Source of the DNA: a virus
IMG/VR virus record: IMGVR_UViG_3300022187_000140
Coordinates: 1-30,827 of that record
Direction: 5' to 3' (one strand)
Length of the DNA: 30,827 bases
Both the position numbers and the translations under genes were made by a program. The notes beneath the pieces were generated by a model. The model was not told the DNA's origin, made no database searches, and saw only the letters and a program-made list of their open reading frames with translations. Below, one piece after another: positions 2,881 to 26,853 of this stretch. The stretch's first letter is position 1. Every line of letters starts with the position of its first letter.

Positions 2881-2927
2881 ATCTTGACACATAGGGGGTG
2901 CCTGGCAAGTGCGCCCTCTGTCGAGAT
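2881..2927 (+). promoter_or_regulatory. Long structured hairpin in leader of DnaA-like gene
   Basis: The arms ATCTTGAC (2881-2888) and GTCGAGAT (2920-2927) pair over 8 bp. After a 4-nt one-sided bulge (ACAT, 2889-2892), AGGGGGTGC (2893-2901) pairs with GCGCCCTCT (2911-2919) over 9 bp, with three G-U pairs in total. The loop is CTGGCAAGT. The hairpin is far more GC-rich than its surroundings and lies in the only gap of nearly 100 bases in the left arm, 24 bases before the preferred ATG. No U-tract follows, so it is not an obvious terminator. It could be a cis-regulatory RNA or a processing site. Confidence 0.6.
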
Positions 2928-2951
2928 ATTAATAATCCAAACTGTATAATT

Positions 2952-3461
2952 ATGAAAATAGAACTAGAAAGAATATATGCAACTAGTGATGGAAGAAAAG
3001 ATGCCATAATCGAAATATGTAATCAGTACTTTCATCCACACAATATCCTAGATAACATTGACAGGAGAATGAGACCAGTAGTAGAGAGAAGAATGATGAC
3101 AATGCTTCTTTTAAGAAACTTTGCTAAGAATTTATCTCTTGCTGACATAGGGCAGGTTTTTAGAAAAGACCATGCTACTGCGTTGCACGCTGTAAAAACA
3201 ATGAGAAACTTGATTGAGACAGATATAAGGCTTCAAACTCAGTATATATCATTAAGAAACAAAATAGTGGCTGAGATAGGAATACAAGGAGAGGTAGAAG
3301 ACCCTTTAAGCAAAATCAAAAGACACAACAGGAGACTAATACACAGAGATATTACTAGGAGGGGTCTCTTGATTGAAGTAAAGAAAGAGTTGGAATATTT
3401 TCCTGAAGCCAAAAGAAAGAAAATAGAAAAACAAATTGAAGCATGTCTGAATCTTTTATAA
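2952..3461 (+). CDS. DnaA domain-IV-like DNA-binding protein
   Basis: This encodes 169 residues. Residues 43-90 resemble the DnaA C-terminal DNA-binding domain: VERRMMTMLLLRNF, then SLADIGQVF, then RKDHATALHAVKTM. The last matches the DnaA signature (K/R)DHxTxxHA. There is no AAA+ ATPase region, so it is a stand-alone origin-type DNA-binding protein, likely helping phage or host initiation. The C-terminal half is basic and helical. A GTG-started reading from 2898 would add 18 residues but begins inside the GC-rich hairpin, so the ATG at 2952 is preferred. The end overlaps the replisome organiser gene by 19 bases. Confidence 0.75.
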   Translation: MKIELERIYATSDGRKDAIIEICNQYFHPHNILDNIDRRMRPVVERRMMTMLLLRNFAKNLSLADIGQVFRKDHATALHAVKTMRNLIETDIRLQTQYISLRNKIVAEIGIQGEVEDPLSKIKRHNRRLIHRDITRRGLLIEVKKELEYFPEAKRKKIEKQIEACLNLL

Positions 3462-4123
3462 CACTAAGTAGGAGGATACTTGATTGGGAGTGGTACACAG
3501 ACCCCAACACGATGAGAGTATTTATCCATTGCCTTATAAAAGCAAACTGGAAGGAGAAAGAATGGAGGGGTGTTGTGATTGACAGAGGAACCTTTGTAAC
3601 ATCTGGAGATAAGATGTCTGATCAACTCAACCTTTCTAGGAAGCAAATATTAACTTCTCTAAAAAAATTAAAAAAAACTGGAGAAATTATCACAAAAGGG
3701 CACAGCAAATATACGCTCGTAACCGTTGTAAAATATGATGATTACCAAAAAATTAATAAGGAGGAGGGACAACAAGGGCACAACAAAGGCACAACAAAGG
3801 TACAGCAAAGGGACACAACTAACAATAATAACAATAATAACAATACAACAAAAGATTATTTAAATTATAAGGGCGTTGCCCAAAACTTTGAAGAGATCAT
3901 GCAAGAGGAGCAGTATGTCAACTTCATGATGGATAAGTATAACATGTCTAAAGGCAACTTAGAAAAGTACTACTTAGAGTTTAATGATCACCTTGAGCAC
4001 ACCCTTGACACTGTGAAGAGCACCAAAGAGTATGCAGCACATTTTCTAAACTGGTACTGCAACAAATATAAAGTAGATAGAAAGACTGGAAGACCTAAAC
4101 TAAGAAGAAAGAACTCATTATGA
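3443..4123 (+). CDS. Replisome organiser / helicase-loader-like protein
   Basis: This is a probable replication initiator of 226 residues. Residues 1-100 resemble the winged-helix N-terminal domain of phage replisome organisers (ITLSRRILDWEWYTDPNTMR, then LSRKQILTSLKKLKKTGEI). A low-complexity Gln/Thr/Asn linker at about 105-135 includes eight consecutive Asn. A helical C-terminal domain (NMSKGNLEKYYLEFNDHLEH, then AAHFLNWYCNKY) follows and would contact the helicase. The gene lies directly upstream of the primase-helicase with an ATGA overlap. The linker-coding DNA carries iterated 11-bp units and an AT-rich tract, as in lambda gene O. Confidence 0.75.
   Translation: MSESFITLSRRILDWEWYTDPNTMRVFIHCLIKANWKEKEWRGVVIDRGTFVTSGDKMSDQLNLSRKQILTSLKKLKKTGEIITKGHSKYTLVTVVKYDDYQKINKEEGQQGHNKGTTKVQQRDTTNNNNNNNNTTKDYLNYKGVAQNFEEIMQEEQYVNFMMDKYNMSKGNLEKYYLEFNDHLEHTLDTVKSTKEYAAHFLNWYCNKYKVDRKTGRPKLRRKNSL
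3766..3820 (+). repeat. Five in-phase 11-bp iterons, candidate origin
   Basis: Five consecutive 11-bp units start at 3766, 3777, 3788, 3799 and 3810: GGGACAACAAG, GGCACAACAAA (twice), GGTACAGCAAA and GGGACACAACT. The period is about one helical turn and is not a multiple of three. The encoded peptide is therefore not repeated, and the repetition exists at the DNA level. The array lies in the linker region of the replisome organiser gene, where lambda and related phages place initiator-binding iterons. Confidence 0.65.
3821..3870 (+). other. AT-rich tract next to iterons, candidate unwinding element
   Basis: Of 50 bases, 44 are A or T (88%). The first part is AAC/AAT repeats encoding polyasparagine and the rest is ATTATTTAAATTATAA. 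It directly abuts the iterons, as the AT-rich unwinding region does in the lambda origin. It could alternatively be plain low-complexity coding DNA. Confidence 0.5.
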
Positions 4124-5907
4124 AAACAATAGAATGGAACCAAATAAACCTCAAGGGTAAATCATCTGGGCAAATAAAAACTACTTGCCCTGCGTGTACT
4201 CCAGAAAGGAAGAATAAATCAGACAGGTGCCTAAGCGTAAACATAGCTAAGGGTGTTGCAAAGTGTCATCACTGTGATGCTATATCCATCAAAGATACAA
4301 AGCCACTTGTTCAAGACATGGTATATAAACTACCTGAGCAGACATGGAAGAACTATACAAAACTATCTGATGGCATGGTAAAGTTTTGTGAGGCAAGGGG
4401 TATTTATCAGTCAACACTCAAGGAGCTCAACATAACTGAAGAGAAATACTATCAGCCACAAGCAAACAAGGAGATGAACAACATAGTGTTTAACTACTTC
4501 GAGGGTGATACCCTTGTCAAGAAAAAGTATAGGTCTGGATCAAAGCACTTTACACAAACGGCACAGACTAAATCTATATTCTACAACATCAATGCCGCTA
4601 TAGGTCAAGAGGAAGTTTTTATTGTTGAGGGTGAGTTTGATGTGCTTGCAATGCACCAGTGTGGATTTAAGAATACAATCAGCATACCGAATGGCGCTAA
4701 TGACAACGATGACTTTTGGATAAACTCCGAAAAGTATATGCAAGACGTTAAGAAGTTTTACATAGCAACTGACAATGATACAAAGGGTGAGATTGTTGCA
4801 GACAAGATAGCGCAAAGACTAGGAAGGTACAGATGTGTTCGTGTCTTGTTTGAAGATAAGGATGCAAATGGTGACCTGCTTAAGGGTGGAAGTGATCTTG
4901 TAAAAGAATCAATTATAAATGGCAAGAGATACCCTGCATCAGGAACATACACAGCTAAAGATTTGGCAGGAGGTATATATGATTTGTATGAAAACGGATT
5001 ACCCGAGACCCTGTTTCCAAAGCACAAATGTTTTGGTTCACTAAAGGATGTGTTCTCTGTGATGAGGGGGCACCTAGTGGTGTCTACTGGTATACCATCT
5101 CACGGTAAATCAAACTTTACAGAGTGGTATGTTATGAACCTGATGAGAGACTACAACATGAAGGCTTCGTTCTTTTCTCCAGAGCACAGCCCAATGGCAT
5201 TACATCAGACTCAGTTCATTGAAAAGTTTTATGGAAGAAACTTTTGGGGAGATACTTACAATAGAAAAAGAATTACAAAAAAGGAGGTTGATAGGTATGT
5301 GGAGTGGGCAAATGAAAGACTGTATATAACAGCACCAGACGATGGGGAGTTTCCTTCATGGAGTTGGTTGCTTGAAAAGTTCAAGGAGCAGATGTTTATT
5401 TATGGTGTAGATATATTTGTTATTGATGCTTTTAATAAACTTGAGTACGATAAGTCAAACGATTCAGAGTTAAGCAGGATAAAAAACGTACTGACCAAGC
5501 TAACAATGTTTGCGCAGATGAACAACGTGATAATATTTTTAGTCGTCCACCCTAGAAAGATGGTTAAGAAAGATAACGAAGACTATGATGTGCCAACACT
5601 TTATGATTGTTCTGGATCTGCTGACTTTAGAAACCAAACCCACGATGGCTTTACTATATACAGGCACTTCTCTGATAACGATCAACAGGGTATAGATGTT
5701 AACGATGTTGAGTTTGTTGTGCAGAAGGTAAAGATGAAGTTCCAGGGTGAGATAAATGCAACTGAAAGGTTTAGGTTTGACCCTGCATCGGGAAGGTACT
5801 ATGTTAAAAACCAAGACCCACCTACCTTTGAGTTTGATAACGAAGAGACTGAAGACATGTCTTTAGACCAAGCCTTTGGTGTTGAAAACGATGAACTGCC
5901 ATTCTGA
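4120..5907 (+). CDS. T7 gp4-like primase-helicase
   Basis: This is a bifunctional replicative primase and DnaB-type helicase of 595 residues. The N-terminal zinc ribbon uses Cys23, Cys26, Cys49 and Cys52. The Toprim domain has the catalytic glutamate in FIVEGEFDVLA (Glu170) and the metal-binding DND at 218-220. The helicase domain has Walker A GIPSHGKS (324-331), Walker B FVIDAF (Asp436) and a downstream SGSADFRNQ motif. Length and order match T7 gp4/Twinkle. The protein ends in an acidic run terminating NDELPF, an SSB-like tip not typical of the family. It overlaps the replisome organiser by ATGA and the next gene by TGATG, so the replication genes form one unit. Confidence 0.95.
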   Translation: MKTIEWNQINLKGKSSGQIKTTCPACTPERKNKSDRCLSVNIAKGVAKCHHCDAISIKDTKPLVQDMVYKLPEQTWKNYTKLSDGMVKFCEARGIYQSTLKELNITEEKYYQPQANKEMNNIVFNYFEGDTLVKKKYRSGSKHFTQTAQTKSIFYNINAAIGQEEVFIVEGEFDVLAMHQCGFKNTISIPNGANDNDDFWINSEKYMQDVKKFYIATDNDTKGEIVADKIAQRLGRYRCVRVLFEDKDANGDLLKGGSDLVKESIINGKRYPASGTYTAKDLAGGIYDLYENGLPETLFPKHKCFGSLKDVFSVMRGHLVVSTGIPSHGKSNFTEWYVMNLMRDYNMKASFFSPEHSPMALHQTQFIEKFYGRNFWGDTYNRKRITKKEVDRYVEWANERLYITAPDDGEFPSWSWLLEKFKEQMFIYGVDIFVIDAFNKLEYDKSNDSELSRIKNVLTKLTMFAQMNNVIIFLVVHPRKMVKKDNEDYDVPTLYDCSGSADFRNQTHDGFTIYRHFSDNDQQGIDVNDVEFVVQKVKMKFQGEINATERFRFDPASGRYYVKNQDPPTFEFDNEETEDMSLDQAFGVENDELPF

Positions 5908-21615: not shown

Positions 21616-24600
21616 TTAAGGAACCGTGTGGTCTACTTTTGAATTGTTGTTTATACTTATGCTAAATGTCGCTTGTGCGTCTCTAGTTGCGTCCAATGGA
21701 TATGGATCTTCAGAATCAGGAACTCCATCTCCGTCATCGTCTGTATCATTTATATCTGGCGTTCCATCTCCATCTGTATCTGTAGGCGTATCAGTCGCAT
21801 CTAACGGATCTGTACCAGCAGCTATTTCGTCTGCATCTGAAAATCCGTCCCCATCGTCATCTGTATCTGTTATATCAGGTGTTCCGTCTCCGTCTGTATC
21901 TGTAGGGGTGTCTGTTGCGTCTAGCGGGTCTGACCCTGCTGCTGTTTCATCGACATCACTAAATCCATCACCATCGTCATCTGTGTCGTAATAGTCTATA
22001 GTACTGTCTCCGTCTGTGTCTGTGGGTGTGTTTGTCTGGTTCTCAGGATCCGTTGGAAATGGATCACTATCATCAAGAGTACCATCGTTGTCATCATCCG
22101 TATCTGCGTTGTCACCCGTTCCGTCTCCATCCGTATCTATCGATTCATTAGGGTCTGTTGGAAAAACGTCTTGAGTGTCGACAACTCCGTCCCCATCATC
22201 ATCTGTGTCTGCATTATCACCTGTACCATCACCATCTGTATCAGTAGTTTCTGTAGGGTCTAAGGGAAATGCATCCGAACTATCTGGAGTACCATCACCG
22301 TCATCGTCTGTATCTGCATTATCTCCTGTTCCATCTCCGTCAGTATCTACTGACTCTGCAGGGTCTAAGGGAAATGCGTCTGTAGTATCAGGCACACCAT
22401 CGCCATCATCGTCTGTGTCTATAGAATCATCTATACCATCATCGTCTGTGTCTGTCTGGATCGATGAATCTGTTGGGTCATCATCTTCAGAGTCTGGTGT
22501 TCCATCATTATCGTCATCGGTATCCGTGTCATCTGGAATACCATCTCCATCAGTATCAAGTTCATCTACATCAGCAATACCGTCATTATCATCGTCTGGA
22601 TCAGCGTTGTCTCCAACCCCATCTCCATCTGAATCTGTAGTCTCATCAGGGTCTTGTGGGAATGCATCTGTTGAGTCAGGGGTGCCATCGCCATCATCAT
22701 CAGTGTCGGCATTGTCCCCAGTTCCATCACCATCAGTGTCAACGCTCTCTGTAGCATCATTTGGGAAGGCATCATCATTGTCGTTTACGCCATCCCCATC
22801 AGTGTCTGCATTCGTAGAGCTTGTGTCTATTTCTTGCGCATCTGGTATTCCATCATTATCATCGTCTGGATCATGTATGTCTAATATACCATCACCATCA
22901 GTATCTAATGTTATTTCTTCTTCAGGATCAAGTGGTGCTGAATCAGTAGCGTCAGGTATGCCATCTCCATCATCATCGGTGTCTGCGTTATCTCCTATTC
23001 CGTCCCCGTCTGTGTCTACACTTTCTGTAGCATCAAGTGGGAAGGCATCGTTTACATCTAATACTCCATCCCCATCGTCATCTGTGTCGATAGAATCTAC
23101 AGTTCCGTCACCATCCGTATCAGTATTATCATATAGTATTTCACACTCCACTTCATCCTCTCTCCACTCTATCTGTGTTCCTTTTAGTGAAAGAGAATAT
23201 TGTCTGTCTCTAGGGTCATATTGACCAATAGCTAAGGGAGGTAATCCAGCTGATAAGTTGTCGTTAAACCAATCAATCATTCCATAGTCTGATATCTGAG
23301 TGATGCCATCTTGTGATAACCTACAAACTACTCTCCTTCTCTCATCTACAAAATATATTCTACCACCCCAAAGCACTGTAGCAAATGGATTGCTAGTTAT
23401 TCCATACTCTCCTAGATAAGGTATATCTTGTCCCAGTATAGCTGTACTTGCTGTGATATTAGAACTACCATCAGCATTAAATAATACGTTTTTATTAAAT
23501 AAAAGCTTACTAACTTTGTTTTCTTGAAATACAACTAAATCAGCTTCTCTTGCAACTATTTTATTGATGTCTCCAAAGAAGTCATCCATATCCTTATAGT
23601 TTACATAAGCTAAATTAAACTCATTTAAGCCATTATATTTTGTTGTTTGATCATAAACATTACTATATGTAATTGAGGCTGTCCTGTGGTTCTTTTTGTA
23701 GTCCTTGAGGTTTGTAGAAGGTCTGTTCTCTAGCTCAAAAAACTTTGTATTAAAATCATCTTTGATTTTATATGATTCTAAGCAATTACCCCATGAAAAA
23801 ACATTAAAGAAATCTAGTGTTATGCTTGCAGGAGAGTTATGAGTTTGGCTAACGTCTACATCATCTCCAAACACTACTGTAAAATCACCTCCAGCATTTG
23901 TAAAAGATCCAGAACCACTTACGTAGTTGCTTGAATCCATATTGCCTACAGAAGGGCTGTTGTTGAAGAAAGTAATTCTAGTTCCTCCAGTTACATCATA
24001 TCTTTGAAAATACTGAACTGCAATGGTTATAGTGGCACTACCTTGTGTAAGCGTTAATTCTTTACCATTGCCATTACCAAAACTTCCGTTGTTTGGACCG
24101 CTTCCTCCAGTAAAATAATTTGCAAATGCTGTATAAGAATCAGTATCAAGAGCTATTTGAATTTGATAACCATTACTAGTAAAAGGATCAGATGAAAGTG
24201 CAGGAAAGTTATCCCAATTATCACTGTCTGGATAATTATTAGTGTTTGTGTATCCTATTGTGGAGGCTGCGCTTAAATTGGTATTTCCTTGTGTTAATGT
24301 AGAAGTATCTTCTGGCACTAGTCCAGCACCAACAGGTCCAGATTGGTGGTATCCTTGTGTTATATTGTATGTTCCAGGTATCTCGTAGAATATCTCTTCA
24401 TTTTTATCTTCTGGTCTAGTTTCGAATGACAATATATCTGATGACTGTCTTTTAAGAAAGCTAATAAGAGAGTCAATCTTTGGCTTTTTATCTAAAGCAT
24501 TATTTTTAGTGCCTAGAGACCTAATTATCATCAATATATTATCTGATGTACTGTTAGTTATTGTGGACTCTTTAGCTGCAAACGTACCCCTTAAAAAGAA

Positions 24601-26853
24601 TATTCTGTCCTCTGGAATGTCTGCGTTTAGGGTTGCTTTAGCTCCGCTTTCGTGATACCACTCTTCTATGTTAGCATAGTCTGCGTTAGCTGTAAACTGT
24701 TGAGCAACATATTGTGTTTCTTCATTAAACTCATCATAAACAAAGTCTACAATTGTTCCTAATGGTATTTCCTCTACTGCCTGATCAAATGATCTATAGG
24801 TGGCAAATGCTTTTGTGTTTGGAGTGTAGGGGAATGTAGATGGTCTTGCATTTACAGTCCATTTATCTCCTAGTGTATGACCAGTGTTTGAGGCAAAGTC
24901 AACACTTAACCCAGTTCCAGGTATAGCTATTGGCGTACCTGATGTTATGGATTGAGCAGTAGTTGTTGATCCTGTGTTGGGGTCATTGTCTAAAGTTTGT
25001 ACAGTAGTAGTAAAAGTATCACCTCCTGCGTTAACAGAATCAATTTCAATGATTATCCTTGAAAATATATTTGACGTTGTATAAGATCCAGATATAGTGA
25101 CGTCTGTTGCAAGTGCAGAGCCTCCAGACCCTGAATAAGGAAAAGGACCTTCAATATATGCCCCTACTGTTTGTGAATTTTTTAAAGGATCATCCCTATC
25201 GTTAGCTGTATCATCGTAATCATCATGCTCTGTAAGCTCATAATCGTCTGTAGAAACAGAAAACCCTACTGGCTTTATCTTCATATACAACCCAGCTTGT
25301 TGAGCTATTGGTGGATCGTTAGTGTCTGGGTAATCATCTGCCTCTAAAAAGTTTTTGTCTTGAAGTTTTATCTCAAGGACTTGAGTCTCAACTAAGTTTG
25401 TTTTTTGACCTCTTGTGTCTGCCTTTACTATAAGGAAATCACCTTCTTGTATTTTGTTTTTATCATTCCCATTTAGCTGCACATAAACATAACCAGTTTC
25501 TGCCTCATTATAAAATATAGAAGGAGTTATTGTGTCATACCTGCCTTTACTTTGTTTTACATAGAATCTGTAGTATTTAGCAAAAGCTGGTGGTAAATGA
25601 CTTATAGTTGCATTTATTTGGTTTTGAGTTTTTGAAGCACTCAGAGGAACATTTACCGTGGCATTATTTGATGTTATAACTGAAGTAGACCTTCCGTAGT
25701 CATCTAAATACACTATACCCACCTCATAGTCTACGTTTGACTTTATAGACTTAGCTACGCTTGGTGAGGTTATTTGAGATGTGTTAAGGGTTGCGTTTAT
25801 ATTAAAAGGTATAGCGTCTCCGTTTGCATCTTTTAAGTCAAAGTTTTCCGTATAGTTAGCATAAACGATCCTGTTACCTATCATTTGCTGCGTCTTAGCA
25901 GTAAGCGGAACATTGTCGTACACCCTTAGTAATTCTTTTTCTGGAAGAACACTATAGACTTTGCTGTTTGAGAACGTGTGTACCTTTGTGCTGTTATCAG
26001 CTATTGACTCTTCTTCCTTATTAAAAGTTTGAGCAACATATACATTGTTGCTGTTGCTTTCCTTAAAAACTAAGTCTATCTCTACAACATTACTTGTACC
26101 TGTTTTAAATGTAACATCTACTTGACTGTAGCTATTCACCATAGATTTATTTAAACCTGTAGCAAAATCAAAAGAAAAGTCACCTGGTAGAAAAGCAACC
26201 TCACTAAATGGAGAAAGTGCACTATATTCACCGTGTTTATACTTAAACCTATAGGCAAAATAAATAAACCTTTCTTTAATGTTGTTTTCATTAGTAGAAG
26301 AGGTGCCTAAAGATAACGTAGGGGCTTCAAGAGGTGGTTGTTGCACCACGTCTACATCGTATTTTGTAAATGCATTAGCATCTATAAGCTTTGCTGACTC
26401 TATCTCTATTCTTCTAGGTGGGTTAATGCCATCAGTAAAAAACAAAAACCTTTTATCGTTGTCAATATCTATAAGTATATTAGACTCTATAAAGTTTGTT
26501 TTGTAGAAGTTCAAGACATTAGTCTTCCAAGACCTTGTGTCTTTCAGGACAAAAGTAGAGCTGTCGTTGTCTACATCATACTCACATATGAATGAACCCG
26601 TATCAGACCTTACAAACCAATATATTTTATTATTAGCATCGTCAGACACAGACCCTATGGAAACTGGATTAGCGCCAAAGTCTAGCTGCGACAAACCTTC
26701 ATTTGAAGGTGAGTTTTCAATAGCCCCCACATCAGATGCAGATGAGCCAGAAACTCTTATATTTAGTGCGTCTCTATACTCTCCTTTTGGAACAAGCCTT
26801 TCATCAAGGTCCTTGTTCATTTTTCCAAGGTTAAATATGTTTTTTAACTTCAT
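21616..26853 (-). CDS. Tail-tube-like virion protein with C-terminal TSP3 repeats
   Basis: This encodes 1745 residues. The N-terminus (MNKDLDERLVPKGEYRDALN) and strand-rich body up to about residue 1235, ending IDWFND ... IGQYDPRDRQYSLSL, resemble large tubular/neck proteins of podovirus-like environmental phages, comparable in role to T7 gp12. A domain near residues 600-660 (FTTTVQTLDNDPNTG, then GHTLGDKWTVNA) recurs in phage tail proteins. From about 1244 to 1721 the protein is a chain of thrombospondin-type-3 calcium loops. The last 24 residues leave the repeat pattern (ATFSISINNNSKVDHTVP). It shares one base with the preceding gene. Confidence 0.7.
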   Translation of the reverse strand: MKLKNIFNLGKMNKDLDERLVPKGEYRDALNIRVSGSSASDVGAIENSPSNEGLSQLDFGANPVSIGSVSDDANNKIYWFVRSDTGSFICEYDVDNDSSTFVLKDTRSWKTNVLNFYKTNFIESNILIDIDNDKRFLFFTDGINPPRRIEIESAKLIDANAFTKYDVDVVQQPPLEAPTLSLGTSSTNENNIKERFIYFAYRFKYKHGEYSALSPFSEVAFLPGDFSFDFATGLNKSMVNSYSQVDVTFKTGTSNVVEIDLVFKESNSNNVYVAQTFNKEEESIADNSTKVHTFSNSKVYSVLPEKELLRVYDNVPLTAKTQQMIGNRIVYANYTENFDLKDANGDAIPFNINATLNTSQITSPSVAKSIKSNVDYEVGIVYLDDYGRSTSVITSNNATVNVPLSASKTQNQINATISHLPPAFAKYYRFYVKQSKGRYDTITPSIFYNEAETGYVYVQLNGNDKNKIQEGDFLIVKADTRGQKTNLVETQVLEIKLQDKNFLEADDYPDTNDPPIAQQAGLYMKIKPVGFSVSTDDYELTEHDDYDDTANDRDDPLKNSQTVGAYIEGPFPYSGSGGSALATDVTISGSYTTSNIFSRIIIEIDSVNAGGDTFTTTVQTLDNDPNTGSTTTAQSITSGTPIAIPGTGLSVDFASNTGHTLGDKWTVNARPSTFPYTPNTKAFATYRSFDQAVEEIPLGTIVDFVYDEFNEETQYVAQQFTANADYANIEEWYHESGAKATLNADIPEDRIFFLRGTFAAKESTITNSTSDNILMIIRSLGTKNNALDKKPKIDSLISFLKRQSSDILSFETRPEDKNEEIFYEIPGTYNITQGYHQSGPVGAGLVPEDTSTLTQGNTNLSAASTIGYTNTNNYPDSDNWDNFPALSSDPFTSNGYQIQIALDTDSYTAFANYFTGGSGPNNGSFGNGNGKELTLTQGSATITIAVQYFQRYDVTGGTRITFFNNSPSVGNMDSSNYVSGSGSFTNAGGDFTVVFGDDVDVSQTHNSPASITLDFFNVFSWGNCLESYKIKDDFNTKFFELENRPSTNLKDYKKNHRTASITYSNVYDQTTKYNGLNEFNLAYVNYKDMDDFFGDINKIVAREADLVVFQENKVSKLLFNKNVLFNADGSSNITASTAILGQDIPYLGEYGITSNPFATVLWGGRIYFVDERRRVVCRLSQDGITQISDYGMIDWFNDNLSAGLPPLAIGQYDPRDRQYSLSLKGTQIEWREDEVECEILYDNTDTDGDGTVDSIDTDDDGDGVLDVNDAFPLDATESVDTDGDGIGDNADTDDDGDGIPDATDSAPLDPEEEITLDTDGDGILDIHDPDDDNDGIPDAQEIDTSSTNADTDGDGVNDNDDAFPNDATESVDTDGDGTGDNADTDDDGDGTPDSTDAFPQDPDETTDSDGDGVGDNADPDDDNDGIADVDELDTDGDGIPDDTDTDDDNDGTPDSEDDDPTDSSIQTDTDDDGIDDSIDTDDDGDGVPDTTDAFPLDPAESVDTDGDGTGDNADTDDDGDGTPDSSDAFPLDPTETTDTDGDGTGDNADTDDDGDGVVDTQDVFPTDPNESIDTDGDGTGDNADTDDDNDGTLDDSDPFPTDPENQTNTPTDTDGDSTIDYYDTDDDGDGFSDVDETAAGSDPLDATDTPTDTDGDGTPDITDTDDDGDGFSDADEIAAGTDPLDATDTPTDTDGDGTPDINDTDDDGDGVPDSEDPYPLDATRDAQATFSISINNNSKVDHTVP
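21690..23125 (-). repeat. Thrombospondin type 3 calcium-binding repeat array
   Basis: About 480 codons consist almost wholly of acidic loops of the DxDGDGxxD type, alternating with DTDDDGDG and AFPLDPxE-type spacers. More than 20 acidic loops are visible. Near the 3' end a 40-residue unit (DTPTDTDGDGTPDI ... GFSDADEIAAGTDPLDAT) occurs twice in tandem plus a partial copy. The protein copies are nearly identical while many third codon positions differ. Confidence 0.9.

Follow-up and report, generated by a model that had tools for sequence, protein, structure and literature searches.

Results

The Initiator Gene and Its Genomic Context

The whole stretch of DNA analyzed here (the window) is a virus record of 30,827 bp. 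It encodes a DnaD-like initiator, or replisome organiser, whose gene directly precedes that of a primase-helicase with Toprim and DnaB_C domains (Table 1). The profile phrog_2514 (DnaD-like helicase loader) matches aa 3-165 of the initiator. In the AlphaFold2 model of this protein (mean pLDDT 76), a winged-helix domain and a helical C-terminal domain are separated by a disordered linker; the block-mean pLDDT of the N-terminal domain is mostly 78-90, with 59 for its first ten residues, and the helix formed by aa 66-79 is, as modeled, likely the recognition helix. A Foldseek search of the PDB with this model gave no match below E=0.001. All matches had E>0.007, the weak ones including the RepA_N initiators 4pql, 4pt7, and 5kbj (E 0.009-0.07), and the solved relatives detected by sequence were weak CodY-type matches only.

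Table 1. Features of the initiator locus (positions in the window)
Feature	Position	Strand	Basis
DnaD-like initiator/replisome organiser gene, 226 aa	3443..4123	+	phrog_2514, E=2.4e-27; DUF7833 at the C-terminus, E=4e-6
N-terminal winged-helix DNA-binding domain, aa 1-105	3443..3757	+	AlphaFold2 helices and wing strands; weak HTH_11 match
Predicted recognition helix, aa 66-79	3638..3679	+	AlphaFold2 model; K67 is codon 3641-3643
Linker-coding stretch, aa 108-142, pLDDT < 50	3764..3868	+	Disordered in the model; coincides with the array and the A+T-rich tract
Iteron array	3766..3816	+	Four full 11-bp units GGNACAACAAA (3766, 3777, 3788, 3799), partial fifth (3810)
Tract of 88% A+T, presumed to be the DNA unwinding element	3821..3870	+	Base composition; recurs in relatives
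C-terminal helical domain, aa 145-208, DUF7833 region	3875..4066	+	Profile match and AlphaFold2
Primase-helicase (Toprim + DnaB_C), presumed partner	4120..5907	+	phrog_239, E=1.5e-82; Toprim_4 and DnaB_C

The DNA of the primase-helicase gene resembles that of Flavobacterium and Cellulophaga phages, which makes a flavobacterial host likely. Directly upstream of the initiator gene (2898-3461, + strand) lies a gene for a 187-aa protein that has the DnaA-box-binding domain of DnaA alone (PF08299, E=3e-10), and the same domain IV motif is encoded just upstream in many relatives with a DUF7833-type initiator (e.g., L055, L074, L077, and L079). In the late region, a 1745-aa protein (21616-26853, - strand) carries many repeats of the DTDGDGTxDxxDTDDDGDG type, like the calcium-binding thrombospondin type 3 repeats. 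Rfam and tRNA scans gave no matches.

The Iteron Array and the A+T-Rich Tract

An earlier note on this DNA had placed a set of repeats and an adjoining A+T-rich tract in the linker-coding part of an initiator-like gene, and both the disorder of aa 108-142 in the model and the phrog_2514 match bear this out. The note had counted five 11-bp units in exact phase. Four of them are full (GGGACAACAAG at 3766, GGCACAACAAA at 3777 and 3788, and GGTACAGCAAA at 3799), whereas the fifth (GGGACACAACT at 3810) has to be regarded as partial because it agrees in its first bases only. The claim that the units share one face of the helix needs a slight qualification, since 11 bp slightly exceeds one helical turn and the units therefore drift slowly round the helix.

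The period of 11 was detected over 3765-3819 by Tandem Repeats Finder. With multiples of three excluded from the tested lags, the highest 44-bp self-match anywhere in the window is that of the array, with 35/44 matching at lag 11 (position 3764); in 200 first-order Markov simulations, each 30.8 kb long, the maximum was 28. Successive units start in codon phases 2, 1, 0, 2, and 1, i.e., in all three reading frames, and when synonymous codons of the gene were permuted with the protein kept fixed, the lag-11 self-match had p=0.001. The periodicity is a property of the DNA, as the earlier note had held. A search of the window for more unit copies yielded a single isolated match, the unit-like ACAACAAAAG at 3845-3854 (+ strand), which does not keep the phase of the array and is missing from some close relatives. 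DnaA boxes (TTWTNCACA) were matched twice in the window versus five expected, neither of them near the array. The GC skew, proposed as a check, tracks gene strand in the window, has no mark at 3.8 kb, and is uninformative for placing an origin.

The 50-bp tract of 88% A+T was found after the array as described. The 50-bp stretch that starts near the array end in the window has an A+T content of 84%; permuting the codons while keeping the protein gives an expectation of 74%. Across 72 arrays of homologous genes (see below), the A+T content rises from 57% within the array to 77% over the following 50 bp (73% under the synonymous null), the gene average being 63%; in 50 of these 72 homologues the most A+T-rich 50-bp segment of the gene lies at most 40 bp from the array end. 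The ratio of AAT to AAC codons is 280:77 in the downstream tracts versus 534:419 elsewhere outside the arrays (Fisher p=3e-14). Amino-acid choice explains part of the downstream A+T excess, and codon choice adds to it. A 9-bp step is often repeated within the tract, both in the window (3821-3845) and in the tracts of relatives (e.g., TAACAATAA, GATAATAAT, and AAGAATATA); as nine bases make three whole codons, a cause of this step in the DNA and one in the protein are inseparable.

The 11-bp Period among Homologous Genes

Homologues were drawn from phage records, IMG/VR, and named bacterial genomes. In the first set, composed of 110 non-redundant homologues with N-terminal domain identity <80%, an array was called at p<0.01 under the synonymous-codon null. 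A lag-11 array was found in 72 of them, at the same position of the gene, and in none of the 170 neighbouring ORFs; the numbers for other lags were 53 for lag 22 and 13 for lag 33, and 0, 8, and 1 for lags 10, 12, and 13, respectively, with peaks at 11, 22, and 33 alone. The array was still present in 16/26 of the subset with N-terminal identity <50%, and in 23 of the 31 members of a second, independently fetched set. No significant array (p>0.05) was detected in 25 of the 110 homologues, some of which have visibly degenerate arrays. The arrays start at a median of about nucleotide 320 of the gene (5-95% range 304-346), just past the conserved YxxYQ at the end of the winged helix. The unit sequence varies widely from phage to phage, and the linker peptides vary among relatives while the 11-bp period persists; the proposed comparison, namely whether relatives keep the period with different units, thus had a clearly positive outcome.

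Named bacterial contigs with arrays include those of Bacteroidota, Bacillota, Chlorobiaceae, and an alphaproteobacterium, and arrays were also observed in Staphylococcus, Vibrio, Cellulophaga, and Sulfitobacter phages. Plasmid relatives gave few matches, mostly large replicons or phage-like records. The 35.8-kb circular, tailed-phage-like genome L021 (PP511318.1) is publicly labelled Microviridae, which looks like a taxonomy error.

In 13 close relatives of the window, variability within the array depends on the unit column (R2 0.83, p=0.0002) and not on the codon position (R2 0.03, p=0.54); the N-terminal domain of the same relatives has the ordinary excess of third-position variability. In a sister clade, AAAG stands in place of the AAGG of the window clade in essentially every unit (four units, three reading frames), the exchanged base being located at different codon positions and altering different amino acids across units. 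The N-terminal residues that differ consistently between the two clades include the recognition-helix positions L/I70Q and K74E/D. This parallel change of units and helix is suggestive only, because it represents one evolutionary event.

Correlation between Residue 67 and the Units

The similarity of units follows that of the N-terminal domains (Mantel p=0.001, partial 0.26), the corresponding value for the C-terminal domain, after correction for the N-terminal one, being 0.03. Within the N-terminal domain, the units track the recognition helix (partial 0.24, p=0.001) and not the rest (0.07, p=0.13). Before associations between residues and bases were tested, the units were aligned without supervision and without reference to the protein. 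The strongest association overall links residue 67 to unit columns 5-7 (z=15.4 at column 6), and it persists when the permutation is confined to clusters of related sequences (p=0.001, the lowest value that this test allows). Lysine at this position corresponds to GGG, arginine to GA, glutamine and methionine to AA, aspartate to CC, and serine to mixed bases. In the K67 clade that includes the window, the two Gs precede a variable base and then A (GGNACAA instead of GGGCAA). These pairings conform to familiar side-chain/base preferences: lysine or arginine with G, glutamine with A, and aspartate with C.

Residue 67 was chosen from the first data set. The units of related disjoint gene pairs differing at this residue were given to the correct partner in 44/44 cases, a test that reuses those data. 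The held-out test does not reuse them: in 33 new homologues, less than 80% identical to the earlier ones, the register was set with the specificity columns masked, and column 6 was predicted correctly from residue 67 in 26 of 28 genes, as compared with 17/28 when the base was copied from the relative closest in the remainder of the domain. The two misses, L246 and L270, appear by eye to be register shifts, yet they were scored as misses. Apart from direct recognition, little would account for a covariation of this strength, and it is therefore very probable that the N-terminal domain binds the array and reads the 11-bp units; the claim of the earlier note to this effect is thereby strongly, if indirectly, supported.

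Discussion

A Candidate Origin within the Initiator Gene

The repeats described here belong to the DNA level, their period is conserved, and their sequence covaries with the recognition helix. Judging from these sequence data, it is highly probable that 3766-3870 is an iteron-type replication origin situated in the gene of its own initiator, with N-terminal domains binding the units, the tract melting, and the helicase being placed there. We infer origin activity, strand opening, helicase loading, and the binding of one domain per unit. Several N-terminal winged-helix domains would lie side by side on the 11-bp direct repeats, each occupying one unit, and the three variable bases of each unit would be read by residue 67, aided by residue 70 and the wing. 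Such a row of bound domains could strain and melt the adjoining A+T-rich tract, and the C-terminal domain may help to put the phage primase-helicase (4120-5907) onto the opened strand.

An improbable alternative is that the array is an operator, by which the initiator represses transcription of its own gene, and that the true origin lies elsewhere. Covariation shows binding and not the effect of binding, and the array does sit within a transcribed gene. However, its location is constant among homologues and falls well inside the gene, about 320 bp past the start codon, which is no promoter position; it is followed by the A+T-rich tract in most relatives, and the characterised systems with such a layout are origins. 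Still less probable is a partition or silencing site, on which the initiator would act like the centromere-binding proteins TubR and AspA. TubR (3m9a) and the AspA-DNA complex (5k5o) are indeed among the weak Foldseek matches, but every PDB match is above E=0.007, and the gene, which adjoins that of the primase-helicase, is classed with the DnaD-like helicase loaders. Finally, although the linker is disordered and a run of Asn occurs in the stretch that follows, it is barely conceivable that the repeats are a mere by-product of replication slippage in a low-complexity Q/N/T-rich linker peptide, with no function in DNA. This explanation is contradicted by a period that is not a multiple of three and persists with the protein fixed, by a variability that depends on the unit column rather than the codon position, and by the covariation of the units with residue 67; moreover, the period stays constant while the peptides vary.

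Beyond the candidate origin of the window, the homologues seem quite likely to form a large class of phage initiators (in Bacteroidota, Bacillota, and Pseudomonadota, among others) with contiguous 11-bp iterons in their own linker, a single residue of the recognition helix being the main determinant of the variable bases (K-GGG, R-GA, Q-AA, and D-CC). If this is true, origin specificity could be read from the protein sequence, with one residue predicting much of the repeat sequence, and new specificities arise as residue 67 and all units change in concert. The 11-bp spacing just past the winged-helix domain is a simple rule by which many uncultured phages and prophages can be given a candidate origin, and the initiator gene would be a case where linker codons are constrained by DNA binding and not by the protein. 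The evolution of origin-initiator specificity, compatibility between phages, and origin-based exclusion would become testable directly from sequence, with natural homologues as reagents. An 11-bp iteron had already been reported for phage L; the general class and the residue-67 rule are new as far as the searchable open literature goes, where no report of either was found, subscription reviews lying outside it.

Comparison with Known Initiators and Origins

A few model phages, each having a different set of repeats, are known to carry an origin within the initiator gene, and the layout in the window matches the characterised origins of this kind in lambda, SPP1 (oriL), and the lactococcal phages Tuc2009 and TP901-1. 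In lambda, as in the window, the middle part of the initiator gene (O in lambda) contains iterons with an A+T-rich region after them; the lambda iterons, however, are about 18 bp long and spaced by 20-24 bp, in contrast to the 11-bp period here. They have been described as inverted repeats binding O dimers (PMC5043065). In control scans, the spacings were 20, 23, and 24 bp in lambda O, 24 bp in P22 gene 18, and 11 bp in ST64T gene 18, in agreement with the annotated lambda iterons and the published description of phage L. Membership of the N-terminal domain in the lambda O family was considered and rejected: comparison with the lambda and P22 proteins by hhalign gave a probability of 1.4%, and PF04492 (Phage_rep_O), which lambda O and P22 gp18 match at E=6e-36 and 7e-38, had no match in the window protein or its aligned homologues. 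The term "lambda-like" used in the earlier note is thus apt for the layout, but not for the protein family or the iteron type.

The nearest described case is gene 18 of the Salmonella phages L and ST64T, where six imprecise 11-bp repeats (TGTCCAACGGA) in the initiator gene were reported as the likely origin (PMC8022706). This gene shares with the window the phrog_2514 match (E=1.8e-22) and the 11-bp array inside the initiator gene. It differs in the unit sequence and in its best match, phrog_345, and it was reported as a lone case with no general rule.

Repeats and an A+T-rich element inside the initiator gene are also found, by published description, in SPP1, where the direct repeats and the A+T-rich unwinding element of oriL lie within gene 38 and are bound by gp38 (PMC6316719). 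As we interpret it, the system of the window works like the lambda and SPP1 origins, yet is outside the lambda O family. In the RepA_N plasmid pSK41, the origin is located in the linker part of rep, between N- and C-terminal domains that are both DnaD-like (PMC5703833). The candidate origin of the window has the same position, and 4pql, 4pt7, and 5kbj are among the weak fold matches of its initiator; on the other hand, the repeats of pSK41 are not contiguous 11-bp direct repeats but four Rep boxes that contain inverted subrepeats.

According to reviews, the replisome organisers of Tuc2009 and TP901-1, and likewise gp38 of SPP1, bind to repeats that lie within their own genes and function as origins (PMC8965321, PMC6316719). 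No lag-11 signal was detected in TP901-1 ORF13, though an origin is reported in the same gene; its N-terminal domain is of another type. The 11-bp period was found in Tuc2009 rep and in the homologous r1t orf11. Tuc2009 thus resembles the window both in this period and in having own-gene repeats that are bound by the protein and act as the origin, whereas the N-terminal domains of Tuc2009 and r1t belong to another family (phrog_5708/phrog_1163). In addition, strong 10-, 15-, 20-, and 25-bp periods (GGATAGTATAGGTAA repeats) were observed in Tuc2009 rep (L234:2097-2879) just downstream of the 11-bp array, and this gene may hold two repeat systems.
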